Origin: Phycisphaeraceae bacterium
GTDB taxonomy: Bacteria > Planctomycetota > Phycisphaerae > Phycisphaerales > UBA1924
DNA: 64,000 nt
Assembly: GCA_019636795.1 (NCBI GenBank)
Contig: JAHBWW010000001.1
Coordinates: forward strand, 310,001 to 374,000
Direction of reading: 5' to 3'
The stretch's first letter is position 1, and every line of letters starts with the position of its first letter. Position numbers and translations under genes: made by a program. Positions 26,234-29,675 of this stretch are shown in pieces. The notes beneath the pieces are model-generated. The model searched no databases, was not told the origin of the DNA, and saw only the letters and a program-made list of their open reading frames with translations.

Positions 26234-28297
<2,064 letters not shown>

Positions 28298-28440
28298 GCC
28301 GCGCTCCTTCCGCTCGATCGAGCAACCCAATCTGATTGATGGGTTCAAAAGATACTGTACTCGATGGCGCGGTGCGCGTGAGTCCGGGTACTCACGTTCG
28401 CTTGAACTGCTGTAACGGTTGGCTGTTGCTGGGGTTGCAG

Positions 28441-28706
28441 CACGGGTAAAAACCGGTGTCGACAAAAAATCGACGCCGGGCCGTGGCGCAGCCCGACGCC
28501 GGGTGGGTAGGTGGCTTGCGATAAACCCTGAGGGCTCTGTGCCCGACGCGGGACGGTTGGTCCCTGCTCAGACTTGCCCCCGGGCCGATGCCCCGTAAGG
28601 GCATCCCGTGACCGGTGATTCGCCAACTACCCCGAAATGTCGTGTCCGCGAACCGCTCACCCCAGAGGAGCAGATTCGTGGATGTCCCAGACCAAAGGCC
28701 TGTTCT
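28441..28706. other. structured intergenic region, candidate non-coding RNA
   Basis: No convincing gene lies in the 530 bases between acs and mqnA, but this part is rich in inverted repeats: a hairpin at 28453-28479 (stem GTCGA/TCGAC extended by CCGG/CCGG), a closing stem GGGTAG-x-TGGC with GCCA-x-CTACCC enclosing about 28516-28619, and inside it hairpins GGGC/GCCC, GCGGGAC/GTCCCTGC and GATGCCC/GGGCATC (loop CGTAA). On the minus strand the 28453-28479 hairpin is followed by TTTTT, like an intrinsic terminator. On the plus strand several stems gain G-U pairs. I could not match it to 6S, tmRNA, RNase P, SRP RNA or a riboswitch family I know. Strand is unresolved. Confidence 0.5.
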
Positions 28707-28829
28707 GGATTGAAAGATACGCCAAATTCAGAAAGATGCCATGAATCTTGAAACACCGTCTGACTTTTCATCGGTCAAATGGTCCGAAAGTGAAGAGAGG
28801 CAATCCTGCATCGAGGCTAAAGTCCGGAT

Positions 28830-29675
28830 ATGGCTCCACTTCGTATCGGCGTCGTTCGGTATTTGAACACAGCCCCTCTGATCGAGGGCCTTGATGCAGC
28901 CGAAAATATCGAGCTCATCGCTGCGGTGCCAGCGCACATTGCAGGCATGGTACAGGAGAACAAAGTCCAGATTGGGCTGGTCTCCACCATCGACGTTGCC
29001 CGCTCTCTGACGCCCTTGACACTCATTCCGAAAGGGATTATCGGGTGTGATGGTCCGACGCTGACTGTACGGGTCTTTTCCATGTGTCCGCCGGAGAAGA
29101 TCACAACACTGGCGATGGACACCGACAGCCACACCTCTGCCGCGCTGGCACAGATCATCCTCTGGCATCAGTACGGGTTGCGTCCGAGAACTGTCGAGTT
29201 CGACGCGCGCGAGCGCATGACCCACGGGTCAGACACAGGCGAGCTTTGGCCCGAGACCATGCTGCTGATTGGCGACAAGGTCGTGACTGACAGCCCGCCT
29301 GCGGTACGCTACCCATATCAGATCGACCTGGGGGAAGCCTGGAAAGAACTGACCGGGCTGCCGTTCGTCTACGCGATCTGGATGTGCCCGTCATCGATCG
29401 CAGGGACGCCTGCCGTGCGCACCGCAGCAGCCCTGCTCGAGCGTCAGCGCTTGCGCAACGAGCAAAGGCTGGACTGGATCGTCTCGACGCGGGCAGCCGA
29501 AAAGGGGTGGCCCGATGACCTTGCGCGACGGTACCTCGGTGAACGCCTGCGGTTTTCGTGCGGTCCGCGCGAGCGTGAAGCCATAGTCCGCTTTCTCGAT
29601 GAGGCTACGCAGCTGGGGTTGGTTCCTGCGTGCAGTCCGGAGTGGTTCGATGCCGAGATTGGGATTGAATCCTGA
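28830..29675 (+). CDS. mqnA: chorismate dehydratase (menaquinone, futalosine route)
   Basis: 281 residues, periplasmic-binding-like fold. MqnA converts chorismate to 3-enolpyruvylbenzoate, the first step of futalosine-dependent menaquinone synthesis. The opening LRIGVVRYLNTAPLIEGL, the segment VQIGLVSTIDVARS, and AMDTDSHTSAALAQIIL are characteristic, as is LPFVYAIWMC. Length matches the family. MqnD-type proteins are related but lack the YLNTAPL start. The MqnP-like prenyltransferase at 48543 supports the pathway. Confidence 0.92.
   Translation: MAPLRIGVVRYLNTAPLIEGLDAAENIELIAAVPAHIAGMVQENKVQIGLVSTIDVARSLTPLTLIPKGIIGCDGPTLTVRVFSMCPPEKITTLAMDTDSHTSAALAQIILWHQYGLRPRTVEFDARERMTHGSDTGELWPETMLLIGDKVVTDSPPAVRYPYQIDLGEAWKELTGLPFVYAIWMCPSSIAGTPAVRTAAALLERQRLRNEQRLDWIVSTRAAEKGWPDDLARRYLGERLRFSCGPREREAIVRFLDEATQLGLVPACSPEWFDAEIGIES

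Follow-up and report, generated by a model that had tools for sequence, protein, structure and literature searches.

A small RNA gene, apparently new, next to mqnA in a single family of Phycisphaerales, with a sigma-factor mRNA as candidate target

6S RNA has a length of about 180-250 nt and ends that are paired with each other, and among the RNAs that regulate rpoS, namely DsrA, RprA and OxyS, all depend on Hfq and several activate rpoS. In the Bacillus and Staphylococcus system of RoxS/RsaE and its sponge RosA, as PMC8216469 presents it, the blocking of the Shine-Dalgarno region by a C-rich seed is an established mechanism of a small RNA. The RNA gene reported here was found in a window of 64,000 nt (by the window we mean the whole stretch of DNA that was analysed) from a Phycisphaeraceae bacterium, and it bears a partial likeness to each of these systems. 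Like RoxS/RsaE, it would be a stand-alone RNA with a C-rich seed directed against a G-rich ribosome-binding site, and the G-rich RNAs of its genome could act as sponges in the manner of RosA. Unlike RoxS/RsaE, it has its seed on the 5' side of, and adjoining, a terminator hairpin that hardly varies, and it was found only in one family of Phycisphaerales, both pairing and sponging being at the level of candidates here; moreover, the RoxS/RsaE model of Rfam is not among the matches at the locus. With DsrA, RprA and OxyS it shares a sigma-70-family mRNA as the candidate target, but Hfq was not found in its genome, where a search with PF17209, whose control rings in 6 of 14 genomes, gave 0 matches at E up to 1 (the genome is 97% complete), so the RNA would not fall into the Hfq-dependent class. 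In the open-licence literature no paper on a small RNA of Phycisphaerales was found.

The region between acs and mqnA had been described in an initial annotation as structured and without a match to a known RNA family, and the latter point is borne out by the Rfam check, which was run over the whole window and gave 0 matches at gathering scores. Between 27800 and 29400, even at E up to 10, there are 6 matches, all of them far below the gathering scores; the best is RAGATH-28 (RF03052) with 20.5 bits and E 0.7 at 28413-28492 on the plus strand, which is far from its gathering score of 45.3 and lies on the strand opposite to the RNA gene. The size and the paired ends are loosely 6S-like, and one may think of a housekeeping RNA, 6S for example, that is present here as a diverged copy; we hold this to be extremely improbable, as 6S RNA (RF00013) is found over the cut-off elsewhere in the same genome (G000:C1:158550-158741, 47 bits), while the 6S covariance model has no match at the RNA locus. 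The genome has a separate 6S gene, and a 6S identity of the mqnA-linked RNA was rejected. In G017, G021 and G024, which also hold the mqnA-linked RNA, 6S is found below the cut-off at other loci.

From the sequence and its comparison among genomes, the region very probably contains a small RNA gene on the minus strand, apparently new and taxonomically narrow, between two ordinary metabolic genes. Its parts and its neighbours are as follows, in window coordinates.

28830-29675, plus strand: mqnA (menaquinone biosynthesis), the divergent neighbour (Pfam PF02621; 31 of 31 loci)
28737-28742, minus strand: putative -35 element ATGGCA (pattern NTGGCN-N17-TANNNT)
28714-28719, minus strand: putative -10 element TATCTT (same pattern)
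about 28464-28707, minus strand: small RNA gene, predicted transcript of ~244 nt (promoter, terminator, conserved 3' core in 31 genomes, fold z -4.1)
28645-28682, minus strand: 5' hairpin in the form seen in the window (predicted fold; another 5' hairpin covaries in subgroup C)
28622-28632, minus strand: 5' arm of the closing stem, GGGUAGUUGGC (predicted folds; pairing test)
28587-28605, minus strand: internal hairpin (read from the sequence; predicted fold)
28550-28564, minus strand: internal hairpin (read from the sequence; predicted fold)
28532-28544, minus strand: internal hairpin (read from the sequence; predicted fold)
28505-28515, minus strand: 3' arm of the closing stem, pairing with 28622-28632 with one U.C mismatch
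28502-28511, minus strand: candidate seed CCUACCCACC, which shares positions with the closing stem's 3' arm (complement at the ribosome-binding site of the sigma gene)
28471-28501, minus strand: 13-bp core hairpin, the predicted intrinsic terminator (two G.U pairs in 28 of 28 distinct sequences)
28464-28469, minus strand: T-run of the terminator, T6 (read from the sequence)
28453-28479, minus strand: alternative hairpin, that of the initial annotation, followed by T5 at 28448-28452
26234-28297, minus strand: acs, acetyl-CoA synthetase, the next gene downstream (Pfam PF00501, PF13193 and PF16177; GTG start read by eye)

As for the strand, the initial annotation had described a set of nested stems and found the cues for their orientation in conflict. 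All the described stems are present when read from the sequence, and the fold of 28430-28660 on the minus strand reaches -112 kcal/mol with z -4.1, none of 200 shuffles being equally good, while the plus strand gives z -2.1 with 5 of 200 shuffles equally good. The core hairpin, of 13 bp, shows 99.2% pairing in an alignment of 31 cores (28 distinct) fitted to the model, and G.U is kept at two of the pairs in 28 of 28 distinct sequences; a plus-strand reading would turn these two invariant pairs into A.C, and they thus argue for the minus strand. The conflict is therefore settled in favour of the minus strand. The same evidence bears on a plus-strand leader of mqnA, which would account for mqnA as the constant neighbour in 31 of 31 loci; such a leader is very unlikely, since mqnA is on the other strand from the RNA, whose promoter and terminators point the opposite way. 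Two terminator-like hairpins exist on the minus strand and they are mutually exclusive. The one followed by TTTTT which the initial annotation had pointed out is indeed present at 28453-28479, though inspection by eye did not show it at other loci, the conserved one being 28471-28501. Moreover, the gene reaches further than had been drawn, to the -10 and -35 elements, while the stems themselves stand. The ends of the predicted transcript are placed from the -10 box (5') and from the T-run (3'); comparison supports the gene, its strand and its boundaries, and we infer the exact 5' end and the expression.

In order of breadth, a DNA search with the spacer over 61 genomes (that of the window and 60 relatives) revealed one conserved block, 28515-28460 in the window, which was found in four relatives, G033, G024, G017 and G021 (E 8e-20 to 3e-6), in all of them beside mqnA. 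A covariance model built on the 55 positions at the 3' end of five sequences (R1) gave 31 matches with E <= 4.5e-9 over 163 genomes of the family, where the next match has 6.9e-4. All the 31 strong matches, the 31st being L116, adjoin mqnA in divergent orientation, and mqnA was seen in 0 of the 19 stretches fetched for weaker matches (E 7e-4 to 0.1), a few of which are cut short by contig ends. A second model (R2), built from the 31 sequences and run with stricter filters for large searches over 400 genomes drawn from the order, returned the same 31 genomes and no others. With an exact pattern, 35 stretches were found among genomes of named species, of which 30 are the same genomes, mostly under titles of Phycisphaerales or Planctomycetota; the other five come from other phyla and are unlike the core. 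A pattern scan of 301 genomes of the order with 3 mismatches was too loose, and CCTACCCCTCGGGCGTCGGGC, which recurs in it, was rejected as a coincidence, for by eye it is coding and reads as leuS (PYPSGVGL). Such a PYPSGVGL-coding segment (CCTACCCCTCGGGCGTCGGGC and close variants), seen in L051, L065-L068, L078 and L079, mimics the core in DNA pattern searches.

The distribution within the family is not simply that of mqnA, which is present in 148 of the 163 genomes, 117 of them having no detected RNA. Upstream of mqnA in 40 RNA-lacking genomes the core was not found, and a 20-mer of it with 5 mismatches allowed occurs in two only. On a tree of MqnA from the 31 RNA-bearing and 40 RNA-lacking genomes, the presence of the RNA needs 2 changes versus a shuffled mean of 23, a distribution which fits vertical inheritance.

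On the side facing away from mqnA, the neighbourhood is variable. Within flanks of at most 1.5 kb, acs was found at only 5 of 30 loci (L080-L109), and the gene after the RNA is often a NeuD-like acyltransferase (by sequence motif) and in some cases a convergent gene, for example in L005. Thus a constant downstream gene on the same strand, which a riboswitch or leader of acs or mqnA would require, was not found. A 5' leader or riboswitch-like attenuator of acs on the minus strand would agree with the arrangement in the window, where acs follows the RNA on the minus strand and a terminator separates the two; we regard it as highly improbable because acs is near only 5 of 30 loci and the next gene is convergent in L005. 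Of the "new non-coding RNA or leader" in the initial annotation, accordingly, the non-coding RNA is retained, with its own conserved promoter and terminator and its divergence from mqnA in 31 of 31 loci, and the leader is not. Apart from this, the mqnA-RNA-acs block also occurs in the record RHKP01000001.1 (L141), which bears the title 'Cyanobacteria bacterium CYA' and is probably mislabelled.

The putative promoter NTGGCN-N17-TANNNT, with its spacer of 17 nt, is located upstream of the RNA in 28 of 31 loci (29 of 31 in a looser scan), compared with a mean of 0.145 and a maximum of 2 in 200 shuffled sets, and with 0 of 31 on the reverse strand. When the spacer is set to 13-16 or 18-22 nt, at most 1 occurrence is found, and in the first 220 nt upstream of mqnA the pattern occurs in 0 of 40 RNA-lacking genomes. 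The pattern had first been spotted by eye in these very loci, so that the shuffles speak to its strength and not to its discovery; the target site described below was likewise found by inspection of loci that were later counted. A terminator is present downstream of the RNA in 31 of 31 loci: in 18 the T-run follows the core hairpin immediately, and in the other 13 a separate hairpin with a T-run lies within 95 nt. At the level of sequence, the RNA thus has the independent transcription unit, with promoter and terminator of its own, which a trans-acting small RNA requires.

Covariation among homologous spacers, proposed in the initial annotation as a check on the structure, is seen in one subgroup of six sequences (subgroup C) and is not to be had from the core. 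The core hardly varies, with 2 cells changed on both sides and 21 of 500 shuffles as high, and it is therefore no covariation evidence. A coding function for it was dismissed by eye, for the loop lengths differ by numbers that are no multiples of three, and in L102 a stop codon closes the frame in question just ahead of the core. For the body, counted only in subgroups chosen for alignability, the 44 pairs in subgroup C are 95.7% paired and hold 14 cells with changes on both sides, as against a shuffled mean of 5.5, 0 of 500 shuffles as high and at most 5 for slid partners, with a structure that was predicted from the same alignment. In the same six sequences 7 pairs are changed on both sides, as many being seen in 16 of 500 shuffles; the 15 further pair types are not above the shuffles (288 of 500); helix 1 of this subgroup accounts for 2 pairs changed on both sides, and 2 such pairs are found in the body of a four-sequence subgroup. 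The closing stem is not uniformly supported. When the pairing of CUACCC with the upstream segment was compared with 200 shuffles in each locus, at most 10 shuffles were equally good in 9 of 31 loci, and the window, with 84 of 200, is not among them, so the stem was dropped as a universal feature.

To understand what the RNA may act on, the segment just 5' of the terminator hairpin merits attention, as CCTACCCAC is found in 31 of 31 aligned homologues and CCTACCCACC in 30 of 31. The 10-nt complement GGTGGGTAGG occurs 3 times in the genome of the window.

RNA locus: GGTGGGTAGG as the RNA's own antisense
intergenic element L223: GGTGGGTAGG within the element
L224: GGTGGGTAGG immediately ahead of the start of a gene of the sigma-70 family

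The homologue of this sigma gene in G033 has the Pfam sigma-70 regions 1.2, 2, 3 and 4, and the best NCBIfam match of the candidate target is rpoS_proteo, below the cut-off of that model. The gene was found in 62 of 62 genomes, and its upstream sequence was obtained for 60 and usable for 59. There GGGTAGG is present in 28 of 30 RNA-bearing versus 0 of 29 RNA-lacking genomes, and the full GGTGGGTAGG in 12 of 30 versus 0 of 29. The two RNA-bearing exceptions, the sigma genes of g88, have GGTGGGTAG at the site instead of GGGTAGG; if GGTGGGTAG is counted, the RNA and the site agree in 58 of 59 genomes, the exception being G255, an RNA-lacking genome that carries GGTGGGTAG. Moreover, the mean duplex of the 10-nt core is -17.6 kcal/mol in RNA-bearing versus -11.1 kcal/mol in RNA-lacking genomes, and none of 200 shuffled cores separates the two groups as well as the real core. 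For the genome of the window, the predicted pairing of the core with the sigma site is -34.9 kcal/mol. Over whole genomes, GGTGGGTAGG has 132 sites (30 of them self) in 31 RNA-bearing versus 58 in 31 RNA-lacking genomes, and a reversed control pattern gives 293 versus 331 in the same genomes; many of the fetched GGTGGGTAGG sites lie in long open frames, look like chance and were set aside. The conserved seed thus has a complementary conserved site in a candidate target mRNA as a base-pairing small RNA requires, but the correspondence is phylogenetically confounded: because the presence of the RNA needs only 2 changes on the MqnA tree, a sign test cannot reach significance, and the independent contrasts for RNA and site amount to 1 on the starred branches and 2 on all. 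So few contrasts (1 to 2) leave no room for significance once a correction is made, and the association counts as suggestive; it may also stem from a ribosome-binding site that is peculiar to the clade and was passed on by descent.

Another set of complementary places lies in G-rich elements, for which two segments are of concern.

GCCGGGUGGGUAGG: segment carried by G-rich structured elements in some RNA-bearing genomes
GGGTGGGTAGG: segment of G-rich elements considered for pairing with the RNA

With the exact GCCGGGTGGGTAGG, the complementarity runs on into the hairpin's 5' arm. Among the matches listed, which cover 18 RNA-bearing and 24 RNA-lacking genomes, it has at least 19 non-self places, spread over 12 of the former, and none in the latter; of the other RNA-lacking genomes, four have matches outside the list and three have no match. 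One of the 19 places, L261, reads as coding and was discounted, and several lie in structured elements with terminator-like ends. In G033 G-rich elements stand before an nhaA-type antiporter gene and an aminotransferase class IV gene, and in the genome of the window such an element precedes an aminotransferase gene (Pfam); there the predicted pairing between the core and the L223 site spans ~28 nt with G.U pairs included, at -56.5 kcal/mol. Rfam at E up to 1 over 14 candidate partner loci names none of the G-rich elements; tRNA is over its gathering score at 3 of these loci, and the other matches are sub-threshold. The G-rich elements could be targets, sponges, or diverged inverted copies.

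Some of these elements were also seen to have features of their own. On the G-rich strand of L223, L225, L226, L230 and L234 (L382 giving a wider context) there is a structured intergenic element with GGAGAGAGG, a stem like GTGGGTCGCGG...CCGCGACCCGCA and a terminator GAGCCGGGCG...CGCCCGGC with a T-run; in the cases checked it precedes genes of the nhaA type and/or of aminotransferase class IV; it has no Rfam match and is a candidate leader or non-coding RNA in its own right. The L223 element lies ~3.3 kb away from the 6S locus (L110, L382), which has a ClpB-like gene as its neighbour. In the genus g67 (L243, L251, L255, L260 and L377) a large structured element of at least ~400 nt has GGGGAGAGAG and segments like GGTGGATGACCGGCGA, together with GCCGGGTGGGTAGG and a strong terminator, and Rfam gave no convincing match on L243, L251, L255 and L260. 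In L381 of G017, two copies of an element containing GNNGCCGGGTGGGTAGGACTT are placed 530 nt apart, at positions ~1500 and ~2030, and a further copy is found in G250 (L371).

Taken as a whole mechanism, we lean, with reservations, to the reading that the mqnA-linked RNA is a base-pairing regulator of the sigma factor. The RNA would be transcribed on the minus strand away from mqnA, from the dedicated -35/-10 promoter, and its transcription would stop at an intrinsic terminator that has its hairpin within the conserved core. Most likely it would act in trans by base pairing: CCUACCC(ACC), which hardly varies and adjoins the terminator hairpin on its 5' side, may pair with the Shine-Dalgarno region of the sigma mRNA and would thereby keep this mRNA from being translated. 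What we observed is the complementarity, confined in the sample to RNA-bearing genomes; from it we infer pairing and repression. The G-rich elements with GCCGGGUGGGUAGG may be further targets or sponges, perhaps titrating the RNA, and the 5' GGGUAG arm, which mimics the target, may mask the seed until it is displaced.

The predicted fold is in fact less favourable to such pairing. CUACCC is unpaired with a probability near 0 in the window and with a mean of 0.2-0.36 over the 31 sequences, and ACC with 0.5-0.67, so the accessible seed required of a base-pairing small RNA in its free form is not found in this fold. Being a prediction, the fold weakens the assignment to that class and leaves the likeness to it untouched. 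A mostly paired seed is consistent with a real and independent non-coding RNA whose invariant 3' core is kept for the binding of a protein or for a structural role as terminator or processing element, the match at the sigma gene being then a clade-specific coincidence of a G-rich Shine-Dalgarno sequence. Both arms of the hairpin are nearly invariant, wobble positions included, which suits such a role, as do the confounding noted above and the rarity of the extended complements: GNNGCCRRGTGGGTAGG has non-self places in 7 of 21 RNA-bearing genomes (G021, G017, G250, G335, G129, G284 and G117) and none beyond the RNA's own antisense in the other 14, and therefore such partner sites are not universal. 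However, the non-self places of GCCGGGTGGGTAGG in RNA-bearing genomes, with none in RNA-lacking genomes among the matches listed, and the superiority of the real core over all 200 shuffled cores speak against a protein-bound or structural core, and we consider this explanation rather unlikely.

Returning to the base-pairing regulator, a wider circuit can be put forward tentatively and as a somewhat doubtful possibility. In these Hfq-lacking planctomycetes, the invariance of the seed and of the hairpin arm would be held by several partners at once, with the sigma factor repressed at its Shine-Dalgarno region and the mqnA-linked RNA titrated by, or controlling, large G-rich RNAs with up to ~28 nt of complementarity. 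If this is true, the circuit would tie the menaquinone locus to global transcription. More generally, the gene illustrates how an RNA body that changes fast can carry a 40-nt core that is almost constant, and with a promoter, a terminator, a seed, a candidate target and candidate partners at hand, base pairing of a small RNA in a genome with no detected Hfq becomes directly testable.
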